From positions 310,001 through 374,000 of the forward strand of contig NZ_CP102930.1 of assembly GCF_025558485.1 (NCBI RefSeq): a DNA stretch of 64,000 nucleotides, read 5' to 3'. The position numbers were made by a program, and so were the translations under genes. The notes under the pieces were generated by a model, which was not told where the DNA came from, ran no database searches, and saw only the letters and a program-made list of their open reading frames with translations. This DNA is from Bdellovibrio bacteriovorus. Lineage in GTDB: Bacteria; Bdellovibrionota; Bdellovibrionia; Bdellovibrionales; Bdellovibrionaceae. Of the stretch, positions 15,121-27,625 are shown piece after piece (position 1 is the stretch's first letter; each line of letters begins with the position of its first letter).

Positions 15121-15256
15121 ACTTCTTTGATCGGAAATTCACCGCAGGACTTTAGCTGTGTCGTTTTGAGAAAATTCCCAAAAAATACCGGACTTTTGCT
15201 TTAGTTTTTCCACGATTCTTCCGTATTAAAGTCCAGGCACTGGGGGAAAGGTGACC

Positions 15257-16330
15257 ATGAACAGACGTATTTTGCGAAAAATTCGAAACTTTCGAGTTCT
15301 TTCAGCGATTGTTGTCGCTTCACTCACCATCGTGAGTTTTCAGAACTGTGCTCCACAGAACTCTCTCTGTAGCGGTTCGGACTGCGACAAAGACACCAGT
15401 GGAGGCTCTTCGGCCTCCGGCTCCAAAGGTTCCGGCAATTCTTCCATCTGGGGCTCTCGCCCTGGAAGCAGTGGTGGCATCAATATGGGCGGCGGCTCCA
15501 ATGGGGGCGGCTCAGGTTCCGGCAGTTCCTCTGGTGGCGCAGTCACCATTGGCGGAGGCGGCAGTTCCGGCGGCGGATCTTCTTCTGGCGGTGGGGCAGT
15601 CACTATTGGTGGTGGTGGCGGGTCTTCCGGCAGCGGTAGCAACGGCGGGGGCGATGGTCCTTTGAAAATTGTGAATCACCCGTCCAGCGTTAGTGTGCAG
15701 GAAAACGGCAACTTCCAGCTTGAGGTCACCTTCACCGGGGGCACCTCCCCTTACACAATTCAGTGGTACAAAAACAGCGCAGCGATTACCAATGGCATGG
15801 GCCATTACAGTTTCTACTCGGGTTCAGCGGACAGCTGGAGCAATGAAGGCACCTATTATGTGGTGATTAAAGATGCCAAAAGCCAGTCCGTGCAAAGTAA
15901 TCTGGCACGCGTGACTATTCTGGAACCGGCCGTCGGATGTCCTGCCGGTCGCTATTTCACCTATACAAATGCCACCTATGATCAGGCCTACAACTATTTC
16001 ACGGAATATTTCGATGGCCCACGCGGGAAGTTCCTGCTGCATCAAGGGTACGACCGCTACAATGTGCTCTTCCAGGCACCCAGCTATTCCAAGTTAAGCA
16101 GCTATGACGTTCCGGCGTTGAAATATTTGGATAAAACCTGGATGAACTGCCGCACGACTATTCCGCGAATTCATACTCCGACTGTAAATCCAAATTATGA
16201 TTATGAGTACGGGGACCGTTACGCTGATAACTATGCATATAAATACACCGGGGAAGTTCAGTTTGAGTGCCGCAACAACAAGCTGAAGCTCATTGCCAAC
16301 ACCTGTAAGTGGGTAAAACAACCCAACTAA
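15257..16330 (+). CDS. Lipoprotein with Gly/Ser-rich stalk and Ig-like domain
   Basis: 357 residues from ATG 15257, with AAAGG five bases upstream; a GTG at 15251 in the same frame overlaps that site. The signal peptide ends in SFQNC, so Cys31 is the lipidated residue. Residues about 47-130 are almost only Gly, Ser, Ala and Val with a repeated AVTIGGGG segment, likely a flexible stalk. An immunoglobulin-like domain follows at about 133-220 (PSSVSVQENGNFQLEVTFTGG, IQWYKNS, NEGTYYVVI). The last 130 residues are Tyr-rich with Cys in GCPAGRYF, WMNCRTT, FECRNN and NTCKW. A cell-surface or predator-prey contact role is plausible but not shown. Confidence 0.78.
   Translation: MNRRILRKIRNFRVLSAIVVASLTIVSFQNCAPQNSLCSGSDCDKDTSGGSSASGSKGSGNSSIWGSRPGSSGGINMGGGSNGGGSGSGSSSGGAVTIGGGGSSGGGSSSGGGAVTIGGGGGSSGSGSNGGGDGPLKIVNHPSSVSVQENGNFQLEVTFTGGTSPYTIQWYKNSAAITNGMGHYSFYSGSADSWSNEGTYYVVIKDAKSQSVQSNLARVTILEPAVGCPAGRYFTYTNATYDQAYNYFTEYFDGPRGKFLLHQGYDRYNVLFQAPSYSKLSSYDVPALKYLDKTWMNCRTTIPRIHTPTVNPNYDYEYGDRYADNYAYKYTGEVQFECRNNKLKLIANTCKWVKQPN
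15521..15625 (+). repeat. Imperfect 57-base tandem repeat in the lipoprotein stalk
   Basis: GCAGTCACCATTGG at 15539 recurs as GCAGTCACTATTGG at 15596, a 57-base (19-codon) period with similar flanking TCTGG-rich sequence. Copy number could vary between strains by slippage. Confidence 0.7.
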
Positions 16331-16331
16331 A

Positions 16332-16366
16332 AAAGGGCTCTTTCGAGCCCTTTCCTGTTTTTATTT
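16332..16366 (+). terminator. Terminator between convergent lipoprotein and exbD genes
   Basis: AAAGGGCTC / GAGCCCTTT, a 9-bp stem with loop TTTC, is followed by a T-rich run. It overlaps the last codons of exbD and is flanked by A-runs, so it may act in both directions. Confidence 0.88.
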
Positions 16367-16765
16367 TTTATCGATACTGATTGCGAACTTTTTAACCCCG
16401 GCACCTTTGACGATGTCCAGAAGTCCCACCACTTTTCCGTGGGGCACGTCTTTATCCGCAGAAATGATTGCCTGAACGTCGGCATTCTTTCCGACCTCAT
16501 CTGTCGCCTTCGCACGAACATCCTCTTCCGTCACGAAGCTTCCGTTCAGATTGATACGGCCGTCTGCCGTCAATGCGATATTCAATTTGCTTGGCGCCGT
16601 CTGATCACCGCTGGCCGCTTTCGGCAGATTCACGTTGATGGTGGGCTTCATAAACATGGGAGCTGTCACCATGAAGATGATCAACACCACAAGAATGATG
16701 TCCACCAGCGGAACGACGTTAATGTCCGCTATGGCTTCATTATTGTCGCTGTTATTCATTGCCAT
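16361..16765 (-). CDS. exbD: ExbD/TolR family proton-channel subunit
   Basis: 134 residues with one transmembrane helix (about 20-42) carrying the essential membrane Asp in NVVPLVDIILVVLIIFMV, then a periplasmic domain (about 50-134) of ExbD type. With the ExbB-like neighbour it forms a proton-driven motor that energises TonB- or Tol-type machines. It starts three bases after the exbB stop. No TonB, TolA or TolB is in the window, so the client is unknown. Confidence 0.93.
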   Translation of the reverse strand: MAMNNSDNNEAIADINVVPLVDIILVVLIIFMVTAPMFMKPTINVNLPKAASGDQTAPSKLNIALTADGRINLNGSFVTEEDVRAKATDEVGKNADVQAIISADKDVPHGKVVGLLDIVKGAGVKKFAISIDKK

Positions 16766-16768
16766 TTG

Positions 16769-17398
16769 TTACACACCTTTTTTCTTAGCGTAAGCCAGGC
16801 ACAACTCTTTCACGCTTTCCAGGTTCTGGAACACGCCGCGAACCTGCTTGCTGTAATAGTTGTAAGCCGCCACCGCCGGGATCGCCACAAACAGACCGGC
16901 TGCCGTTGCCACAAGGGCCATGGAAATACCCGCCATCACCGTCTGCTGACCCGCTTCTGGAGCTGTCGCCAAATCATTGAAGGCTTTCATGATACCCAAA
17001 ACCGTACCAAACAATCCGATATAAGGCGCATTGGAACCCACCGTCGCCAGGAAGCCCAGGAATTTTTCCAGTTCCGGACGCTCTGTCAAAGCAAAGGTGT
17101 TGAAGATTTCGGAAAGACCTTTGCTGCCCGCGTCTCTCATGTGTTTCAATGCGTAGCCTGCTGCGCGACCTTCAATGGAGTTTGGATCTTTCGCCAGATC
17201 CTCGACATCTTCAAGGCTGTTGCTTTGCAAAGCCAGCTTGATGCGTGCGCGCACTCGTTGAGACTCTGCGGAAACTTTTTTCAGAGCAAAGTAGCGTTCC
17301 AAAATCATGCCGATGCTCAGGACGCTGAGAACAAGCAAGATCCACAAAACGACTTGATCCGCCAAGTGGGCAACTGTAAATATTTTTTCCGTGAGCAT
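16769..17398 (-). CDS. exbB: ExbB/TolQ/MotA family proton-channel protein
   Basis: 209 residues with three transmembrane segments (about 10-30, 115-140 and 150-180). The conserved C-terminal MotA/TolQ/ExbB signature is clear: APYIGLFGTVLGIMKAF and ISMALVATAAGLFVAIPAVAAYNYY, where Thr and small residues line the proton path. It is the first gene of an exbB-exbD pair and is divergent from the sulfatase-like lipoprotein at 17476, with 77 bases between. Whether it serves TonB uptake, Tol-Pal or gliding cannot be said. Confidence 0.93.
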   Translation of the reverse strand: MLTEKIFTVAHLADQVVLWILLVLSVLSIGMILERYFALKKVSAESQRVRARIKLALQSNSLEDVEDLAKDPNSIEGRAAGYALKHMRDAGSKGLSEIFNTFALTERPELEKFLGFLATVGSNAPYIGLFGTVLGIMKAFNDLATAPEAGQQTVMAGISMALVATAAGLFVAIPAVAAYNYYSKQVRGVFQNLESVKELCLAYAKKKGV

Positions 17399-17475: not shown

Positions 17476-19287
17476 ATGCGGAAAATCATTTTAACTCTCA
17501 CACTACTCCTTCTGAGTTTGGTCCAGCTCTCCTGCCAGACACACGACAGGAAATCCATTTTGATCATTGCAGTTGATGAATTGACCATCAGCGACGTCAA
17601 TTGCAATCAAGAAGCCCCCGAGAGGTCTGGTTTTCAATTGCTTTGCAAAGAGTCGGTGCGCTTCACCCACGCTTTTTCCCCCTCCCCCTTGGCTGTCCCG
17701 GCCCTGACTTCGCTGCTGACTGGACTTTACCCCTACCAACACAAGATTCGTCACAATGGGGGCCCGGGTCTGGCCGCCGAGTTTGAACTGGCGTCCGAGG
17801 TGGCTTCGGATCAGGACTATCGCACCAGCTTCTTTTCCGGTGGTGCCCCTGTCTTTCGCCGCACAGGTTTAAATCAGGGCTTTGAGCTTTTTGATGACAA
17901 TATCGTTCCGACCTTCCGCAGTTTGATTCGTCCGTTTAAACAAAATGCCGATGCCTTTCGACAATGGGTTCATCAGGATGCGGCGGGCATGGCCTTTTTC
18001 AGCGTGATCTATGTTCCTGACCTGTTATTCACCACAACCGAAACCGTGACGGATCTTGGTGAAACACGCAATTTAAGTTTTGAAAGCCAGCTGGATGAAT
18101 TGGATGAAAGCCTTTACGAGCTTTTTGAAGACCTGAAAAACAGCGGTCGCTGGGATAAAACCACGATCTTTTTGGTGGGCTTGAATGGTCATACGGGCAA
18201 CGACCGCCCGAAAGAGCTCAGCACCATGAACTTGCATGGCGAAAACACACAAGTGGCCCTTTTCATCAAACCCTCACAAAAACAGAAACGCGATGAAGCC
18301 ATCCATTGGAAGATTGATCAGAACGTCAGCCTGGTCGATGTCGGCCGCACCGTTTTCCATCTGCTCGGGGAAAGCATTGTGGATCAGGCTCCTCCGTCGT
18401 TTCCCGCGCATTCTTTGGCAGAAGTTCTGAAAAGCCCCAATGCCAACTGGGCTGAAGATCGTCCTTTACTACTGGAATCTGGCTGGGCCCTGTGGCGCAA
18501 GGCGGGTCCGTTAAAAACAGCCGCCATTTCCAACCACGTTCTGCTGATCAATGATGAAAAGCCGCGCCTTTACAACACGCTGGTGGACCGCTTTGAAACC
18601 AATCCACTTCCCATGTTGCAGGAAAGCATCCTGCCCACCACCCAGCGCCTGCAATCCCTGCTGTATCGAAACCAGTTTCCGGCCTTTGCACCGCTGGCTT
18701 CTGAATGGACGACCAAACTCAGTCTGCCTTTTTCCCGCTGGATGCGTCTGGATCAGGAGGCTTTGCTGTTAAAGGATTTAAAAAGACTGTTGCAGTCCCA
18801 GCCCGGCAGTCTGGATCTTTTAAACTGGACTGCGCAAATCGCCCTGAATCAAAAAGACTGGGAAACCCTGAAGCAACTGGGCACCAAAAACAAAGTGTCC
18901 ACATGGCAGTTCATTGCAGAAAAAAATCTGGGCATGAAGAATGCCAGGGTTTCTGATGCCTGCTTTGATTTGATCTCGGCAAAAAGCATCAACACGGACA
19001 ATCTGAAAAACTGCGGAGACCCGCTGTTCCTGGAATGGATTGACTGGATTCGCGCGGATGCCCGCGGACTGGTGCGCGACACGCAGAAAAAACGTTTTGA
19101 GCGTTCATTTAAAAACTACATGCTGGATCAACAGATCCAAAGAACCAACATTGCCGCAGGTCTTATCTGGGATACATCGCGGGACAATGTCTTTGCCCCT
19201 TCAAGGGTGGAACTGGCTTTAAGCCTTCCGGAATTCAGCAAGCTGCGCAATCAGGTTTATAAAAATCTGACTGTCGAAGACCTTTAA
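17476..19287 (+). CDS. Sulfatase-fold lipoprotein lacking the catalytic nucleophile
   Basis: 603 residues. The signal peptide ends at about Cys20 (LVQLSC), probably lipidated. Residues 25-330 follow the alkaline phosphatase/sulfatase fold: ILIIAVDELTISD (metal strand), the SPSPLAVPALTSLLTGLYP helix at 68-86, and a TTIFLVGLNGHTGND metal motif at about 235. In active relatives the helix starts with Cys, Ser or Thr in C/T-x-P-S/A-R/H; here that position is Ala73 and the basic residue is Leu77. The second acidic residue of the usual VDD is Glu. So the fold is kept but catalysis is probably lost. The C-terminal half (about 400-600) is helical and unassigned. It overlaps 19284-19967 by four bases, tail to tail. 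Confidence 0.75.
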   Translation: MRKIILTLTLLLLSLVQLSCQTHDRKSILIIAVDELTISDVNCNQEAPERSGFQLLCKESVRFTHAFSPSPLAVPALTSLLTGLYPYQHKIRHNGGPGLAAEFELASEVASDQDYRTSFFSGGAPVFRRTGLNQGFELFDDNIVPTFRSLIRPFKQNADAFRQWVHQDAAGMAFFSVIYVPDLLFTTTETVTDLGETRNLSFESQLDELDESLYELFEDLKNSGRWDKTTIFLVGLNGHTGNDRPKELSTMNLHGENTQVALFIKPSQKQKRDEAIHWKIDQNVSLVDVGRTVFHLLGESIVDQAPPSFPAHSLAEVLKSPNANWAEDRPLLLESGWALWRKAGPLKTAAISNHVLLINDEKPRLYNTLVDRFETNPLPMLQESILPTTQRLQSLLYRNQFPAFAPLASEWTTKLSLPFSRWMRLDQEALLLKDLKRLLQSQPGSLDLLNWTAQIALNQKDWETLKQLGTKNKVSTWQFIAEKNLGMKNARVSDACFDLISAKSINTDNLKNCGDPLFLEWIDWIRADARGLVRDTQKKRFERSFKNYMLDQQIQRTNIAAGLIWDTSRDNVFAPSRVELALSLPEFSKLRNQVYKNLTVEDL

Positions 19288-19967
19288 TCCGCATCGACAT
19301 CAACCAGTCCCAGCCAGAACGGAGATTCCGGGTTTTCCTGAATCATACTGGTTGTGACCGCAGACAGATCCAAAGAATTACCTTCACGCGTCCACAGCGT
19401 TGTCGCCACGCGACTGCTGGCCAAAAGAACCAGACGATCCCCTTCACTTACAGAAGTGTGTCCGCAGTGAATATAACAAGTGGGGTCCAATCCCAGCAAT
19501 TGCGCCGGAAGAGGCGGCAACTGACTGACCTCGGATTCACTGGATAAATCCAGCCCCACCGACAGCGGTTGTAATTTCTGATTTTTTCTTTGAATGAATA
19601 AACTTGGACAACCCACATGGGCCCACGCCAATTGCGAGCCGCGCCTGAAGATGGCCATCAGCTCCACTCCGGAAGAATATTCCGCGCGGTTTTCACCCCG
19701 GTATAACAGGTCATTGGCAATTAAGATCCCGGTGCGCACATAGTTCACTTCGTCAGTCAGACAGGTCAGGAACTCAAACGGCGAGGTCACTTCCACGTCT
19801 GCTTTGGCAGAGCTGACATACTTCACAACCTCATCCAGCGCACGCTGCGCGTGTTCAGGTTGTCCCCACGAGGTCGCCACGACAATCAAACTGCCGTCGT
19901 CCTCACGGTGGATCAGAGGTTTTGGGCGCAGAATCTTGGTGCTATAGGATCGCTCTTGCATTTTCAC
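19284..19967 (-). CDS. PP2C-like protein, probably catalytically dead
   Basis: 227 residues. The alternation GVELMAIFRRGSQLAWAHVGCPSLFIQRKNQKLQPLS and later GDRLVLLASSRVATTLW matches the beta-sandwich of PP2C/SpoIIE phosphatases, where the latter strand normally reads like LLxSDG. The metal-binding Asp residues of active PP2C are not seen: the first motif lacks DGMGG-like residues and the SDG is SSR. It is the last gene of the operon starting at 26084, two bases after an FHA protein. A pseudophosphatase or binding partner for the FHA proteins is a reasonable guess. Family assignment is by pattern only. Confidence 0.5.
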   Translation of the reverse strand: MKMQERSYSTKILRPKPLIHREDDGSLIVVATSWGQPEHAQRALDEVVKYVSSAKADVEVTSPFEFLTCLTDEVNYVRTGILIANDLLYRGENRAEYSSGVELMAIFRRGSQLAWAHVGCPSLFIQRKNQKLQPLSVGLDLSSESEVSQLPPLPAQLLGLDPTCYIHCGHTSVSEGDRLVLLASSRVATTLWTREGNSLDLSAVTTSMIQENPESPFWLGLVDVDAD

Positions 19968-19969
19968 GA

Positions 19970-22003
19970 CTACAGGGCTCCGTATTTCTTCAGTTTAATA
20001 TAAGCCTTTTTGTAGTATTCCCCGTCCGGAATATCCAGCTCCAGAATCTTCTTCCACTTATCCTTGGCACCGGCCTTGGCCTCACCACCATCGACATTGC
20101 CGAAGCTTTCCTCCAGAATTCCCTCTTGATAAAGAGTCATCATCTGCTTGCGCAGCTCCACCACATAGCGCTCGATACGCTCTGGCAGTTCTTCATTGGT
20201 CGGGTCCAAAGAGCGTGCTTTTCGCAAGGACTGAATGGCCCCCTTCAAATTCTGTGACTGATAGTATTTTTCCGCCTCGGCCTGAAGATGTGCCGTTTTG
20301 GAATTCATCATCTGACGGATCGAGGCAATCGTGCGCTTGGACTGCCCTTTGTACCCGTTCGGGTCCGGCAGTTGCGCATCAATCACTTTTTCATAAGCCG
20401 CAATGGCATCCAGTGGCTTGCCTTTTTTATGCACGGCCTGAGCCCGGTCATAAAGGCCTTTCATTTTGGACACCAATGACTGATAAACGGCCCTTTCCGC
20501 GGCCTTGGCTTCACGCTGAGCATTCAGAGCATCCACCTGGGCTTTCAAATCCAGAATGCGTGGATGCTCGGGGTTGAATTGCAGCACCGGGCTTAGACAG
20601 TCCTCAATTTCCTGCGCAGTAATCATCGGATTGATTTTCTTCTGACATTCGGCGACCTGTTTCTGGATCTTTTCTTCCGCCTCTATTTTGGATTTTTCAA
20701 TCTCGGCCTGACGACGTTGTTGTTCCTGAATGAAAATAGCCTCTTTGGACAAACGTTCAATTTCACGGATGTCCTCATAGTCCGGCACCAGTTCCTGAAT
20801 CTTGATGATTTCATCCTGTGCCAGTTGATATTTACCCTGCATGTAAAGGTTCTTGGCATCCTTATAACGCTGACGAACCAGTGCCTGCTGTTCCGGTTTT
20901 AGTTTTGCAAAAATATCCGCTGGCGAGCCCGGCACCACCAGCCCCTGCCCCGGTTGCGCCGGAGGAGCCTTGCCGTCATTGCCACTGAACAGGTAAGCCA
21001 CGGCCACCAGCACCACGGCACCAATAATCATTTTTGGACGATGCTTCTGGAAATCAAATTTCCCGCTGGCTGCCTGAGGGTAATGTTGCGGAGCCGGAGC
21101 TCCCATACCCGGATACTGCATCGGCTGCTGATAAGGCATCGGCGGCATCGCCCCCTGATAGGGGGCCATCTCGTAAGACTGCTGCTGATATTCCATTGGC
21201 AGACTTTCTTGAGAAGTCGGCACCAAAGGATTTGGCGGGGCCACACTGACCAGCTCCATACGACTTTGGAAGCTCGCATCGTGCAATTCAAAATAAAGAT
21301 AATTTTCCAGCACACTGATCGCATCACCGCTCTTGATCGGTGTCATGTCCGTGGAGGAAATGGGGTTTCCATTTAACAGCGTGCCATTCACGCTGCCCAG
21401 ATCCAGAATCACGTACTGCGAACCGGCTCTGCGAATTTCAAACTGGCGACGACTGACCCGCTGATCACGAATCTGAATATGACAGGATGGATCGCGTCCG
21501 GCCACCCACGAATCCCCGGCATCCAGACGGATCATCTCTTTGGCTTCGTTGTGACTGTCCACAATCTTGATGAAGGCCGCCGTTGGCGCCACACCGATCA
21601 TGGTTTTTTCATCGCTGCCTTCAAAGGATTCCGCATGAACCCCGGTCAAAGCCGGCAGATTTTCACCCGTTGAAGCCGCAGGCTGTTCTTCATACGCTGG
21701 CACTTCCGCCACAGTGTTCAGGAAATCAAATTCATAAGGCGGTACAGAGAACTGACTGCCATGTTCAAGCGAAAACTGCTGAACCTGATCACCGTTATAG
21801 ATCACTTCCCCGTAGCGGGACACTACTTCCACAGTCCATGAGCCATTAACAAAGGACACCTTGAAGTGTTCCCGGGAAATGCCTTTTTCCGGCTGCAAAA
21901 CGATATCGCAGTCCTCTTTACGACCAGCCACATAAGAGCGGTCTTCGCTTAAGTTCACTTCACAAACTGTTTTGCCACGAAGGCGAACCCGAAGCAGCGC
22001 CAT
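19970..22003 (-). CDS. Membrane protein with two FHA domains and a TPR-like C-terminus
   Basis: 677 residues from an ATG that overlaps the upstream stop (TAATG), with GGAGGG about ten bases before it. FHA1 is about 20-90 (AGRKEDCDIVL, GISREHF) and FHA2 about 150-240 (AGRDPSCHIQI, RVSRRQFEI, GSVNGTLLNG). Both keep the Gly-Arg and Ser-Arg loops that bind phosphothreonine, although FHA2 has Gln where His is usual. A Pro/Gln/Met-rich linker (260-315) leads to one transmembrane helix (about 324-340). The C-terminal 330 residues are Lys/Glu/Gln-rich helical hairpins of TPR type with coiled-coil parts (IEKSKIEAEEKIQKQVAE), probably periplasmic. It is the fifth gene of the tadC-FHA operon. Confidence 0.85.
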   Translation of the reverse strand: MALLRVRLRGKTVCEVNLSEDRSYVAGRKEDCDIVLQPEKGISREHFKVSFVNGSWTVEVVSRYGEVIYNGDQVQQFSLEHGSQFSVPPYEFDFLNTVAEVPAYEEQPAASTGENLPALTGVHAESFEGSDEKTMIGVAPTAAFIKIVDSHNEAKEMIRLDAGDSWVAGRDPSCHIQIRDQRVSRRQFEIRRAGSQYVILDLGSVNGTLLNGNPISSTDMTPIKSGDAISVLENYLYFELHDASFQSRMELVSVAPPNPLVPTSQESLPMEYQQQSYEMAPYQGAMPPMPYQQPMQYPGMGAPAPQHYPQAASGKFDFQKHRPKMIIGAVVLVAVAYLFSGNDGKAPPAQPGQGLVVPGSPADIFAKLKPEQQALVRQRYKDAKNLYMQGKYQLAQDEIIKIQELVPDYEDIREIERLSKEAIFIQEQQRRQAEIEKSKIEAEEKIQKQVAECQKKINPMITAQEIEDCLSPVLQFNPEHPRILDLKAQVDALNAQREAKAAERAVYQSLVSKMKGLYDRAQAVHKKGKPLDAIAAYEKVIDAQLPDPNGYKGQSKRTIASIRQMMNSKTAHLQAEAEKYYQSQNLKGAIQSLRKARSLDPTNEELPERIERYVVELRKQMMTLYQEGILEESFGNVDGGEAKAGAKDKWKKILELDIPDGEYYKKAYIKLKKYGAL

Positions 22004-23166
22004 TAGTATCTGCCCTCCAGGTTCAAAGTACACTCTTCATAATACTGCTTGGCTTCCTTATAGGACGGATCATCCTTCCTATGCTGAAGCATTGTCATCA
22101 CGTTGGAATAATTGGACTGACACATTCGCCAGTTCTTTTTCTCTCTGTAGCGGTTGCCCTGAATCATGTTGAATTTCACCAGTTCATCAAACTTAATCTT
22201 CGACAAATGGAAGTATCGCTTCGCCAGTTCGTTATCCGGGTCCAGATTCAACACCACCTGGAAGGCTTCACGTGCACGGGCATACTGACCCTGCTGGAAA
22301 TCCCGGAAACCCTTGATAAAGTTTTCCTGTGCACGACGATACTGGATGGAATCGTATTTTTCTTTTTTAACAGTCAACAGTTCCTGCGAGCGTTTTTCCG
22401 CCTCGGCCACATCGGCCATCGACAACGCGGACGTTCGGAATGTGTTGGCATCTTTTTTCGGTTTGGAATTGCCAGAGAACAGGAAGAACCAAACTGCCAA
22501 ACCAATGGCCGCCACAATTCCATAGAAACGAACTTTCGGATTCGCCAGCACCCCACCCGACGGTGGCGAAGCCATCGTTCCCATCGCCGGACCAGCCCCC
22601 CCACCGGAAGGTGGAGGATTGTATCCGCCATAACCCATCGGCTGAGCCGGAGGCATGGACGGATTGGGCATGGATGGCATCGGACGCGGCTGTTGATACG
22701 CCGGCATCTGCTGCGGACGAGGTGTTGCGACCGGCGTCGGGAATGGATTCCCCTGCTGAATTGGCGGACCCGGATTCGGTGTCAGGAAAGACACCGGATT
22801 TGGTGTTGGGGCCGCGGGGGCTGGAGCCGCCTGCACTTCGGGGACTTCCGCACGGAAAATAATTTCTGTCTCACCAATCTGAATCACCGAATCGTTTGTC
22901 AACGGCTCGGATTGAACGTTCTGGCCATTGACCATCACGAAGTTTTTCTGACTCAGATTGACGAGCACAAATTCATTTCCACGCTGTTTGATTTCTGCAT
23001 GCTGACGACTGACGCGCGGATCACTGGAAAGGACAATGTCATTTTCCGGACCACGCCCCAGCGACACCGACGCTTTTGCAAATGAAAGCTTCAATCCGCT
23101 GTGAGGCCCTTTGATGACCTCAATATCAAATTTCAAAGTATCCTTCATGGAAGGGGCTGCACTCAT
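22003..23166 (-). CDS. Membrane protein with one FHA domain and a TPR-like C-terminus
   Basis: 387 residues from ATG 23166, in TGATG with the upstream stop and eight bases after GGAGG; a TTG one codon earlier is less likely. The FHA domain is about 35-105 (LGRGPENDIVLSS, RVSRQHAEI, VMVNGQNV), with the phosphothreonine-binding Arg, Ser and Asn present. A long Pro/Met/Gln-rich linker (110-205) precedes one transmembrane helix (about 213-231). The remaining 150 residues are TPR-like helices (AQENFIKGFRDFQQGQYARAREAFQVVLNLDPDNELA). The layout copies 19970-22003, suggesting duplication within the operon. Topology with FHA in the cytoplasm and TPR outside is inferred from the single helix. Confidence 0.85.
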   Translation of the reverse strand: MSAAPSMKDTLKFDIEVIKGPHSGLKLSFAKASVSLGRGPENDIVLSSDPRVSRQHAEIKQRGNEFVLVNLSQKNFVMVNGQNVQSEPLTNDSVIQIGETEIIFRAEVPEVQAAPAPAAPTPNPVSFLTPNPGPPIQQGNPFPTPVATPRPQQMPAYQQPRPMPSMPNPSMPPAQPMGYGGYNPPPSGGGAGPAMGTMASPPSGGVLANPKVRFYGIVAAIGLAVWFFLFSGNSKPKKDANTFRTSALSMADVAEAEKRSQELLTVKKEKYDSIQYRRAQENFIKGFRDFQQGQYARAREAFQVVLNLDPDNELAKRYFHLSKIKFDELVKFNMIQGNRYREKKNWRMCQSNYSNVMTMLQHRKDDPSYKEAKQYYEECTLNLEGRY

Positions 23167-24839
23167 CAAGAGCCTCCTTCAGTTGGGGATACTGTGATCA
23201 CAAAATAATCCACTTCCTGCCCTGTGCACATGGCCTGACAACTTAAAATACAAAGATGTCCGCTGAATTCCAGCTGGTCCGTATGAATGCCGCGTGTATT
23301 TTCACGCGAACGCAGCATCAGGCCTTCGATGTTCTGTTGCAGAGCCGCATCTGGAATGGCCTTATAAGGCTGCCCTTGCAACTGCGCCATTTCAGCACGC
23401 GCCACTTGCAGGAAGGACGGATTGCAGGCCACAATGCGGCCTTCTTTGGAAATCGTCACACAAGGGAAGCCGACGATCTGCACCAGATTTTCTGCTTCCC
23501 CGTCTTTATTCACAAAGCCGGCACCACCGGAACCACCATCACTGTCACCGTGAATATAGCGAGTCAGCAAACTGTTGATATTGCCAATCAGCGCCTGCAA
23601 TGGCGGGAACTGGAAATCCACAGCGGTATTGTCCGTTTTTTCACGCATGGCCGTATCCAACTGGGCATTTAAGGCCACCAACGGATATTCAATCAGCTTG
23701 TACATGAAGTAATAAATCAAAAGACCCAACAGAGAGGCGATCACCAGCGTTTGCATGAACAAACTGATGGCACGGCCGTCATCAAATGCCAGGCTGCCCA
23801 CATCGTAAAGCACGATGGCATGGGCTTTCACAGACTGTTCACCGGTATTCGGGTCAAACAAACCAATTGGGAAGCTCGCACCGATAGTGGAGGAATCCAC
23901 TTCCACAGCCTGCGGTCGCATTTCACGACGGGCCGAATGGACAAATGGCAGATCCGGCGTGGTCCCCGCACGGGAAGCCGGAGCCAGAATCATTCCGTCG
24001 GACTGCTGCACGATCAGAACCTGTTTCACACCGTCTTCAGCCTCTGCGGCGTTGGTCGTCAGTGTGGAATAGCTGTTCTGAATCAGCGCTGTTTGATTCA
24101 AAGTTGCCACCGTACGAGCAATAGAGGACGCACGACGTTTACTTTCATTAATAATGCTGGCGCGGGTGATCTGCACCATCGGAATCATCGACAACAAGGT
24201 CGTGGAGAAAATAAACAGAACAACAAAGCCCAGAAGGACCATTTTCATTTCCACGAACTGTGGCAAACGATAGACCCCGGGCAAAGCCACACGGTCCATG
24301 TAGTCATTCAGCTTATCCATAAATCCACGGAAGCCACCCTGCTGGAAAGCAGGGGCCGGAGCCACGCCGCCCGGAGCTGCCATACCTGGCATCCCCGCCA
24401 TAGGCTGCGGCATTCCCTGAGGCATCCCCATTGGTTGCTGTTCTGGCATTCCCATTGGCATGGCTGGTGGCATCTGCGGAGCCGCCCCACCGCCATAATA
24501 AGGCATTGGTGCCGGAGCATTACTTTGCGCAGGACGCTGCTGACGGGCTTCCGGTGATGGAATCACATCCGCAATCACATCATGAATTCCCAGCTTGTCG
24601 CCCAAACGCATCACACCACTTTGCATACGGACACCGTTTAAATAGGTGCCGTTGCTGGAGCGCAAATCCGTAATCACGATCTTATCTTTATAAACCGCAA
24701 CCTCGGTGTGTTCCTTGGAAACACCCGGACTTAAAAGCTTAATATCACACTGCGGAGCCCGACCGATGAGGTTTTTCCCCATCTTCAACTCCACAACGGA
24801 CCCGGCCTGCGGGCCGGTCAAGATTCTAAGCGCCCACAT
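23166..24839 (-). CDS. FHA-domain membrane sensor with two transmembrane helices and a PAS-like C-terminus
   Basis: 557 residues. The FHA domain is about 22-92 (IGRAPQCDIKLL, GVSKEHTEV, SSNGTYLNGVR). A Met/Pro/Gly/Gln-rich linker (about 95-170) follows, then TM1 (199-219), an extracytoplasmic domain of about 140 residues, and TM2 (359-380). A HAMP-like or helical part and a C-terminal PAS-like fold (about 450-552, FPCVTISKEGRIVACNPSFLQVA) come last. There is no kinase, cyclase or receiver domain, so it would signal by binding. It is co-translated with neighbours (14-base overlap upstream, 1-base downstream). It is likely the sensory member of the operon. Confidence 0.82.
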   Translation of the reverse strand: MWALRILTGPQAGSVVELKMGKNLIGRAPQCDIKLLSPGVSKEHTEVAVYKDKIVITDLRSSNGTYLNGVRMQSGVMRLGDKLGIHDVIADVIPSPEARQQRPAQSNAPAPMPYYGGGAAPQMPPAMPMGMPEQQPMGMPQGMPQPMAGMPGMAAPGGVAPAPAFQQGGFRGFMDKLNDYMDRVALPGVYRLPQFVEMKMVLLGFVVLFIFSTTLLSMIPMVQITRASIINESKRRASSIARTVATLNQTALIQNSYSTLTTNAAEAEDGVKQVLIVQQSDGMILAPASRAGTTPDLPFVHSARREMRPQAVEVDSSTIGASFPIGLFDPNTGEQSVKAHAIVLYDVGSLAFDDGRAISLFMQTLVIASLLGLLIYYFMYKLIEYPLVALNAQLDTAMREKTDNTAVDFQFPPLQALIGNINSLLTRYIHGDSDGGSGGAGFVNKDGEAENLVQIVGFPCVTISKEGRIVACNPSFLQVARAEMAQLQGQPYKAIPDAALQQNIEGLMLRSRENTRGIHTDQLEFSGHLCILSCQAMCTGQEVDYFVITVSPTEGGS

Positions 24840-25176
24840 AAAGTTGATCTCCCACGCTGACGTTCACTTTGCTGACGGTCCCCGCTGCCATTTCAATAAC
24901 GGAAGCGGCACCCCACACTGGCAGAATCAATCTCCAGGGCTGCACATCCTTACGAATGGCACGCACCTTCAGATTCTTATCCACAAACACACAATCAATC
25001 GCAAACTTCATAAAGAAAGTATGAATGCTGTTGCAATGATGAATCCACAACGCCTGATGGGATGGAAGATTCTCCCGCCCCAAAAGTCCTTTGCCACGGC
25101 TAAGGAAAGTGGAGGCCACTTCCAGGTCCGCAATCAAAGTCTGATTCGTTGTGGTGTTCATCAGCTTAGCCATCAT
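24826..25176 (-). CDS. DUF192 family protein
   Basis: 116 residues, a full-length DUF192 domain: FLSRGKGLLGRENLPSHQALWIHHCNSIHTFFMKFAIDCVFVDK and a Gly-rich VIEMAAGTVSKVNVSVGD end. The biochemical role of DUF192 is not established. It has no signal peptide here, whereas many relatives are exported. It starts inside the tadC stop (TAATGATG) and overlaps the downstream FHA gene by 14 bases, so it is translated as part of the operon. DUF192 genes next to Tad/Flp components are known in several bacteria, but I cannot verify frequency here. Confidence 0.88.
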   Translation of the reverse strand: MMAKLMNTTTNQTLIADLEVASTFLSRGKGLLGRENLPSHQALWIHHCNSIHTFFMKFAIDCVFVDKNLKVRAIRKDVQPWRLILPVWGAASVIEMAAGTVSKVNVSVGDQLYVGA

Positions 25177-26084
25177 TACTTGCCACCATACATAAACGAC
25201 ACTGCCACCGGTCCAAAGACGACAATGAAAACCGCTGGCAAAATAAACAACATCAAAGGAAGCAGGATCAACTGTGACGCCTGCGCCCCGGCCTTTTCCG
25301 CACGAACGAATCTTTCCAGACGCATTTGCACTGACTGGTCTTTCAAAACCTGGGAAATACTGGCCCCGGTCGCCTCAGCATCCACCAGGACTGCCACGAA
25401 GCTTGTGATTTCATTCATGTCCAGTCGTTCCGCCATCTCTTTCAAAGCCTGGGATTTGGACGAACCGATTTTAATATCCTTCAACACTATTGAAAACTCG
25501 TCAGCCAGCACACTGTCCGTGCCACGCGCCTTGTCCACGATCTTCTGAATCGCAGAGAAAAAGTCTAGACCCGCCTCCACTGACAAAGCCAGAAGGTCGA
25601 TAAAGAACGGCAGGTCCGCACGCACGGAAAGTTCACGACGCTTCTTTTCACCTTTGGCGTGAATCTGCGGCAGATAGAAACCAATCAGCCCCATGCCGAT
25701 AACCACCGGAATGGAAAGTCCCAACTGCAACGAGAAGTTCATGATCATCAGGAAGATCGGGAATATGATCCCCCAAAGCAATTGCAAACCGATGAACTCA
25801 TCCTCGTTCAGCTCTGAAGACAGGCCCGAGGTTTTAATGTATCTGCTGACCTTCTTGCGATAGGATTCACTGCGAATTTTCATCGCGTGCTGCAAGGTGA
25901 ACTGATGCACCAGCGGACGCGAGAAATTGATCACCGGATTTTTGGATTTCACCGGTTCATCATTGTTGGCCCACGACAGCTGTTGCTTGTCGGAGTTGCT
26001 TGCAAATATCGAACTGACAAATAGGAAGACCGCCACTCCTGCGAGCAGCAATCCCAGAATCAGCATTAACTCTGCACTTCCCAT
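25176..26084 (-). CDS. tadC: Type II secretion F-domain protein, TadC-like
   Basis: 302 residues from ATG 26084, with GAGG eight bases upstream. An N-terminal transmembrane helix (about 5-25), a pair around 115-150 and a C-terminal one (about 275-298) flank a GspF domain (about 165-295) with DLLALSVEAGLDFFSAIQKI and RAEKAGAQASQLILLPLMLFILPAVFIVVFGP, typical of TadC. TadC is an inner-membrane platform protein of Flp/type IVb pilus assembly, usually next to tadA and tadB. Here neither is present: a divergent maf begins 28 bases upstream, and FHA genes follow. An unrelated frame extends the reading to 26336 through maf and is rejected. Confidence 0.85.
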   Translation of the reverse strand: MGSAELMLILGLLLAGVAVFLFVSSIFASNSDKQQLSWANNDEPVKSKNPVINFSRPLVHQFTLQHAMKIRSESYRKKVSRYIKTSGLSSELNEDEFIGLQLLWGIIFPIFLMIMNFSLQLGLSIPVVIGMGLIGFYLPQIHAKGEKKRRELSVRADLPFFIDLLALSVEAGLDFFSAIQKIVDKARGTDSVLADEFSIVLKDIKIGSSKSQALKEMAERLDMNEITSFVAVLVDAEATGASISQVLKDQSVQMRLERFVRAEKAGAQASQLILLPLMLFILPAVFIVVFGPVAVSFMYGGK

Positions 26085-26688: not shown

Positions 26689-26764
26689 ACGCTGAAAGTT
26701 CTCTGGGGTGAAAGCACCAACCTCTGGTATGGTGGCCCATCTTTTTCCATCGGAGGTCGTTCAC

Positions 26765-27625
26765 ATGAAGAAACGTTCCGTTTCTCTTACTCTGGCTGCT
26801 TTGACTTTGGCAGCTGCAACCACACACGCACAGGAAGTTTTGCCACAAGCCCCTTCCGTCCAGGAACTTATCGAACGTCAGGCTGAAGAAGGCCTGAAGC
26901 GCATGCAGGACTACGACGACACCTGGGGTATCTGGGATGTGCTAAAGCCCCGCAACAAGTGTAAGTATGCGATTCAAATTCCTGATCCTGTCACGCGTGG
27001 AACCATTGCACTGACATTTGATGACGGACCAAACCCTGCCAGCACCCCTTTGGTTCTGGAGGTGCTCAAAGCTCATAATGCCAAGGCCACCTTCTTTATG
27101 TTGGGAAGTGCCATCAAAGGCAATGAAGCTCTGGTTCAGCGCGTGGTAAATGAAGGCCATCATATTGCCAACCACTCTTACAGCCACCCGAACTTCCACG
27201 AGCTAAGTTCCTCAAAAGCACAGTCAGAGGTTTCAGCCACGGACCGCATGCTGCGTTCCTTTTCTCAGCCGACTTACTTCCGTTACCCTTATGGCAATTC
27301 CACTTGTTCTGCCAATGAGATGATTGAATCTTTGGGCTATCACATCACAGGCTGGGACATTGACACTTGTGACTGGGCCTATGCAGACGGCTACGTGACT
27401 GACAAAGAAAATGCAACCTGCCAGACACCCGACAGTCTGCGCCGGGATTATGCCGGTCACGTGATGCGTGAAGTGGCAAAAACACAGGGCGGCGTTTTGC
27501 TTATGCATGACGTACACATGAACACCGCAAAAAGTCTGGATCGCCTGCTGACCATGCTGGAACAAAAAGGCTATCGCTTTGTGACTTTGGATGATCGCAA
27601 TATCTTCCCTAAACTAAATCGTTAA
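26765..27625 (+). CDS. Secreted polysaccharide deacetylase, NodB family
   Basis: 286 residues from ATG 26765, with GGAGG nine bases upstream. The signal peptide ends at about AQ23. The NodB homology domain starts at about 80: TFDDGPN gives Asp86/Asp87, HSYSH gives His137 and His141 of the metal site, and RYPYG (about 178) and the C-terminal LMHDVH (about 242) complete the active site. The likely substrate is an N-acetylated polymer such as peptidoglycan or chitin. In predatory Bdellovibrio, deacetylation of prey peptidoglycan is a known step, so a role in marking the prey wall is possible but not shown here. Confidence 0.88.
   Translation: MKKRSVSLTLAALTLAAATTHAQEVLPQAPSVQELIERQAEEGLKRMQDYDDTWGIWDVLKPRNKCKYAIQIPDPVTRGTIALTFDDGPNPASTPLVLEVLKAHNAKATFFMLGSAIKGNEALVQRVVNEGHHIANHSYSHPNFHELSSSKAQSEVSATDRMLRSFSQPTYFRYPYGNSTCSANEMIESLGYHITGWDIDTCDWAYADGYVTDKENATCQTPDSLRRDYAGHVMREVAKTQGGVLLMHDVHMNTAKSLDRLLTMLEQKGYRFVTLDDRNIFPKLNR

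Follow-up and report, generated by a model that had tools for sequence, protein, structure and literature searches.

A conserved FHA and PP2C-fold gene block linked to the Tad pilus in Bdellovibrio bacteriovorus and its relatives

A stretch of 64,000 nucleotides from the 3.34 Mb genome of Bdellovibrio bacteriovorus (C1:310001-374000, hereafter the window) contains a minus-strand operon of six genes: tadC, a DUF192 gene, three genes for membrane proteins with FHA domains (FHA/PAS, FHA1, and FHAx2), and a PP2C-like gene. Positions within this block are given in window coordinates (Table 1). The genes are packed nearly end to end. Successive overlaps from tadC are 1, 14, and 4 bases, followed by an overlap between FHA1 and FHAx2 (1 base with the conserved Met start, 31 bases for the longest open reading frame) and a 2-base gap. 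Searches against Pfam identified four FHA domains, the T2SSF domain, and DUF192 above cut-off, together with TPR repeats. All FHA regions also matched Yop-YscD_cpl, and the PP2C-like gene scored 11.8 bits against PP2C_2, below the cut-off of 24. No Ser/Thr kinase gene occurs in the block. An earlier sequence-only reading of this stretch had described six overlapping or nearly abutting genes with four FHA domains in three membrane proteins, and the coordinates, overlaps, and Pfam scores confirm that description.

Table 1. Genes of the six-gene block, in transcriptional order
Gene	Window position	Strand	Assignment
tadC	25176-26084	-	T2SSF (PF00482), 58 bits; Tad pilus inner-membrane platform protein; Bd0470 orthologue
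DUF192 protein	24826-25176	-	PF02643, 76.5 bits; Bd0471 orthologue; no assigned role
FHA/PAS	23166-24839	-	FHA, 54 bits; PAS_4, E 0.008; FHA-linker-TM-sensor-TM-PAS (TM, transmembrane helix); Bd0472 orthologue
FHA1	22003-23169	-	FHA, 60.6 bits; FHA-TM-TPR; Bd0473 orthologue
FHAx2	19970-22033 (likely start 22003)	-	FHA, 98.8 bits in two stretches; TPR_2; FHA-FHA-TM-TPR; Bd0474 orthologue
PP2C-like gene	19284-19967	-	Predicted PP2C-fold pseudophosphatase; Bd0475 orthologue

The block is the Bd0470-Bd0475 operon of B. bacteriovorus and is already in print. It was recognised by its neighbours, which in the literature are divIVA (Bd0464) and a deacetylase (Bd0468). In the relative genome taken as HD100 the operon and its neighbours recur at 440 kb, and TadC is 94% identical. 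A transposon mutant in tadC (BD0470::tn) does not attach to, kill, or round prey, and a mutant in FHAx2 (BD0474::tn) attaches but neither kills nor rounds prey (Duncan 2019, PMC6561027). Killing by both mutants was restored by complementation (PMC6561027). The operon was named by Abulude 2025 (PMC12034629), where two-hybrid assays showed that Bd0474 binds the TPR/GYF protein Bd0075, and where Bd0473 and Bd0475, the latter labelled hypothetical, were predicted to form a complex (interface predicted template modelling score [ipTM] 0.60). A Tad-pilus role for the operon was proposed in earlier literature, and regulation of tadC parallels that of other pilus genes (PMC3818213). With these phenotypes published, and with FHA signalling already proposed for the related Kil system (PMC8460266), the claim that no such set had been described does not hold. 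Duncan 2019 and Abulude 2025 treat the same six genes with the same neighbours, Bd0464 DivIVA and Bd0468 deacetylase. They do not name the PP2C fold of Bd0475 or describe the sensor/PAS receptor architecture, the phylum-wide gene order, the position beside Tad genes, or the phosphatase with an intact site in Bacteriovoracia, all of which are new here. Also new are the contrast between intact and dead PP2C sites, the conservation of the FHA pockets, and a kinase and a canonical PP2C encoded elsewhere in the genome.

The Tad system of this genome is split. The main Tad locus (C1:1016-1024 kb) encodes pseudopilins, CpaB, a secretin, a TadZ-TadA fusion, and TadB, but no TadC. The window holds the only tadC of the genome, and its only TadB/TadC partner is a T2SSF gene at C1:1022757. 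A T2SSF-domain TadC, a cognate TadB, and a TadA ATPase, as expected of a Tad platform, are thus present in one genome, and the distance of 687 kb between tadC and tadA/tadB bears out the separation described previously. The TadA ATPase (L007:7157-9382, 741 residues) carries an N-terminal MinD/TadZ-like P-loop domain, and open frames of the size of this 741-residue TadZ-TadA fusion recur across the phylum.

Gene order in the block is conserved across nearly all of Bdellovibrionota. A search with the FHA/PAS protein matched all 60 relatives at the order level, although the weak match in G040 is to the FHA domain only. The six-gene order is kept in 40/40 order-level loci as far as the contigs extend; in one of them (L080) no PP2C can be recognised in the last gene. 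At the phylum level, a model lacking the FHA domain matched 274 of 291 genomes and 152 of 163 genera. The named loci derive from a Bacteriovoracia-only query, as a whole-phylum alignment is too divergent for locus searches. The complete order tadC-DUF192-FHA/PAS-FHA-FHAx2-PP2C was found in ~125/162 loci, and most others end at a contig edge. The DUF192 gene lies nearly always between tadC and FHA/PAS. Because the order recurs at both levels, the arrangement is not due to chance. Apparent absence of the block in families f14, f19, and f22 was rejected for several of the negatives, where direct reading showed the block to be present. In two draft Bdellovibrionales genomes, G040 (L241) and G283 (L242), tadC and the whole block were not found, for which an assembly gap is possible; both retain the Tad core (pseudopilin-CpaB-secretin-TadZA-TadB).

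Neighbouring genes in other classes link the block to the pilus. In ~27 loci (families f17, f21, f23, f25, f26, and f29), the block is followed on the same strand by genes for pseudopilin, CpaB, secretin, and TadZ-TadA. Bdellovibrionia and Bacteriovoracia have it separate from the Tad core genes. Since Tad genes stand directly behind the block in these other classes, gene order identifies it as the Tad system's own unit, apparently split off in Bdellovibrio. This adjacency is strong evidence and connects the FHA genes with the Tad machinery much more firmly than sharing an operon with tadC does on its own. For a physical platform complex of TadC with TadB and TadA it is indirect evidence. Where the block adjoins Tad genes, the FHA genes travel with it; they do not occupy unrelated positions. 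The earlier proposal that a signalling scaffold is associated with a pilus platform is supported by this arrangement. The block could alternatively be a hub for general signalling at prey contact, with the shared operon as its only tie to tadC and with its main targets elsewhere, for example via Bd0075 and Bd3743 or cyclic di-GMP. The different attachment phenotypes of the BD0470 and BD0474 mutants indicate that these genes are not equivalent, and binding of Bd0474 to a GYF-domain protein also fits such a hub. Against it stand the strict linkage of the block to tadC, its linkage to the entire Tad core in other classes, and the joint absence of block and tadC from G040 and G283, and we consider a general hub improbable.

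Two of the four FHA pockets have the residues of phosphothreonine readers. In FHA/PAS, the contact residues R27, S41, and N63 are near-invariant across 162 loci of the phylum, and R180, S194, and N216 of the second FHA domain of FHAx2 are equally conserved. The first FHA domain of FHAx2 is noncanonical and has the Asn loop in no group. FHA1 keeps its NG loop in 61/61 Bacteriovoracia and others and has lost it in Bdellovibrionales (positions D71, S74, and G77). By residue content, FHA/PAS and the second domain of FHAx2 are therefore predicted readers, and FHA1 of Bdellovibrionales and the first domain of FHAx2 are not. The FHA/PAS model (predicted local distance difference test [pLDDT] 81) has a disordered linker and two transmembrane helices that enclose a sensor domain, and it ends in a PAS domain. 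Its FHA domain aligns with those of GarA, OdhI, and DgcB (Z 17-19), and residues 222-352 align with the sCACHE sensor domains of CitA (Z 14.2) and DcuS (Z 13.2). The model is that of a receptor-like protein with no kinase output domain. Each FHA protein had been described as having a Pro/Gln/Met linker and one transmembrane helix, with two ending in TPR-like domains. The TPR domains stand for FHA1 and FHAx2, but FHA/PAS has two transmembrane helices, a CitA/DcuS-like sensor, and a PAS domain. The linkers are low-complexity, and neither their sequence nor their Pro/Gln/Met make-up is conserved outside the genus. Recognition of conserved Pro-rich FHA linkers by the GYF domain of Bd0075 was considered and dropped, as the linkers hold no motif outside the genus.

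The last gene of the block encodes a confidently predicted PP2C fold. An AlphaFold model built with 38 orthologues has a pLDDT of 93.7 and aligns with tPphA (5iti; Z 20.6, root-mean-square deviation 3.6 over 211 residues) and with PppA of the type VI secretion system (T6SS; Z 18.3). A profile search without structure also matches tPphA (E 2e-4). The metal site was assessed by the four Asp of the binuclear center in the motifs NED, DGxGG, [ST]DG, and DN. All four are absent from the window protein, from 41/41 Bdellovibrionales, and from 2/2 members of the sister order. The gene in this position encodes all four in 55/56 Bacteriovoracia (among them Halobacteriovorax marinus and Bacteriovorax BSW11_IV and DB6_IX), in 2/2 members of f27, and in 11/22 members of f17, with Glu at the last site in four further f17 genomes. 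Six f21 members and others retain only the first two Asp ligands. On a tree of FHA/PAS and TadC the intact-ligand label needs nine changes, a count that by itself cannot separate gain from loss. Repeated loss is preferred because regain of four metal ligands is implausible, and we read this pattern as an ancestral active eraser that was probably lost several times, most fully in Bdellovibrionia. The missing ligands thus stand as described for the class of the window; as a defining trait of the block they do not, since intact sites in other classes point to a derived loss.

Having the fold but none of the four Asp ligands, the Bd0475-type protein is best classed as a pseudophosphatase of active ancestry, not an enzyme, and the Bacteriovoracia orthologue, by its residues, would still be an eraser. 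The other possibility raised earlier, an active enzyme from a different family, is not borne out. A separate PP2C encoded at C1:746783-747352 served as a control and retains textbook PP2C motifs. That Bd0475-type proteins remain active through other residues, completing a kinase-FHA-phosphatase loop in Bdellovibrio, would agree with a fully retained fold and with invariant residues W34, N93, E102, and G119. The uniform absence of the Asp set across Bdellovibrionales and the sister order, set against the canonical motifs kept by the separate PP2C of the window's genome, makes this highly improbable.

The main rival explanation gives the FHA proteins a structural role alone: they would form an inner-membrane ring comparable to that of the FHA-like YscD/SctD domain in type III secretion, would take no part in phospho-signalling, and would have the PP2C fold as a further adaptor. 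Matches of all FHA regions to Yop-YscD_cpl and an FHA-TM-periplasmic layout resembling SctD are consistent with a ring, and so are the first FHA domain of FHAx2, which lacks the Asn loop everywhere, and the dead PP2C of Bdellovibrio's class. The highest score with TIGR02500, the equivalog for the type III SctD/YscD ring, was 32.7 bits (cut-off 86). Near-invariant phosphothreonine contacts in two FHA domains across ~150-160 loci argue against a purely structural role, and an intact-site PP2C in the same operon of Bacteriovoracia is hard to explain without ancestral phosphorylation. We regard the structural ring as unlikely.

The absence of a kinase holds for the operon but not for the genome, which has one clear Hanks-type Ser/Thr kinase (C1:3175388-3176194) with a transmembrane-like segment and a PEGA domain. 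A Ser/Thr kinase above cut-off was found in 59/60 order-level genomes, and the orthologue is the best-scoring kinase of the genome taken as HD100. From its position and number it is probably Bd3148, the predation-linked kinase named in the DgcB study (PMC6733907), and it is a candidate writer for the FHA proteins. The kinase gene (L097:8237-10294, minus strand) adjoins coaE, and kinases of similar size recur across the order.

Three known systems share features with the block. The Kil system of Myxococcus xanthus is a Tad-like killing pilus whose genes lie in two loci and include several for FHA proteins (Seef 2021; PMC12075869). A signalling role or cascade was proposed for its many FHA proteins (Seef 2021, PMC8460266), and Kil-like genes were reported in Bdellovibrionales (Seef 2021; PMC12075869). 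The KilF ATPase has an FHA domain at its N-terminus; the ATPase of Bdellovibrio is instead joined to a MinD/TadZ-type domain, and the FHA domains belong to separate membrane proteins encoded with tadC. No FHA match was found at the TadA gene, and so no N-terminal FHA-ATPase fusion of the Kil type. The Bdellovibrio block also has a PP2C fold, and a phosphatase is not mentioned in the main text of the Kil study (PMC8460266). The PpkA-PppA-Fha module of T6SS likewise encodes an FHA reader and a PP2C eraser with a contact-fired envelope machine. It differs in that the Bdellovibrio block is without a kinase, its PP2C is without ligands in this class, and the machine is a Tad pilus. In B. bacteriovorus, DgcB is needed for invasion, and its FHA domain binds the phosphorylated tail peptide of the same protein (PMC6733907), which counts in favor of phospho-reading in this species. 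DgcB is a diguanylate cyclase encoded outside the Tad block.

An ExbB/ExbD pair (window 16361-17398) and a sulfatase-like gene (17476-19287) flank the block across most of the order and are mostly not kept in other classes. A polysaccharide deacetylase (26708-27625) adjoins the block in the position orthologous to Bd0468, which is known to deacetylate peptidoglycan during predation. The product of the gene at 15251-16330 is probably secreted and contains a long low-complexity stretch of Gly/Ser.

We favor, as a moderately probable account, a scaffold built on FHA proteins that senses contact and gates the inner-membrane platform of the Tad pilus when prey is attacked. The evidence for the Tad link is strong, and the phospho-switch is what we infer. 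The block would supply the other half of the inner-membrane assembly of the Tad (type IVc) pilus, along with the scaffold that controls it, with TadC pairing with TadB of the main locus to form a platform driven by the TadZ-TadA ATPase. The periplasmic CitA/DcuS-like domain and cytoplasmic PAS domain of FHA/PAS may sense envelope state or prey contact, and its FHA domain would read phosphothreonine. The FHA-TM-TPR proteins Bd0473 and Bd0474 would link cytoplasmic phospho-reading to periplasmic partners. The PP2C-fold protein, originally an eraser, would in Bdellovibrio's class be a dead fold, most likely retained as a subunit with a structural or phospho-binding role, for which FHA1 is the probable partner. 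The conserved kinase encoded elsewhere would phosphorylate threonines on Tad or block proteins, and the separate canonical PP2C would possibly reverse this. The FHA proteins would then fix the TadC platform in either a firing or a non-firing state, such that phosphorylation licenses pilus extension or retraction at prey contact.

Several points weigh against this account. G040 and G283 have the Tad core with neither tadC nor the block, unless these fall in an assembly gap. Most phylum members with the block are draft metagenome-assembled genomes of unknown predatory habit. In the class of the window the eraser of the block is dead and the Asn/Gly loop is missing from two of the four FHA pockets, so control there may no longer need phosphorylation.

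A bolder and rather doubtful extension of the gated-platform account is that a nearly phylum-wide, obligatory receptor-FHA-PP2C block fires the Tad pilus by a phosphothreonine relay. In several lineages, most completely in Bdellovibrio's class, a pseudoenzyme would hold or shield the phosphorylated FHA assembly, converting a reversible switch into a one-shot invasion trigger.

Taken together, the scaffold, the dead PP2C, the split tadC, and the gene order proposed by the sequence-only reading are supported; its novelty is not, and the lack of a kinase is true of the operon only. The picture is of a Tad pilus that carries its own FHA/PP2C control block, with a published operon at its center and the intact/dead contrast as its new element. 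The block bears on how a signal passes from kinase to invasion in Bdellovibrio, a question raised in the DgcB study, and on how prey contact triggers Tad/Kil killing pili. It joins a pilus platform to a sensor, conserved phosphothreonine readers, and a phosphatase fold. Bacteriovoracia and Bdellovibrio provide a natural contrast between intact and dead PP2C in the same gene position.

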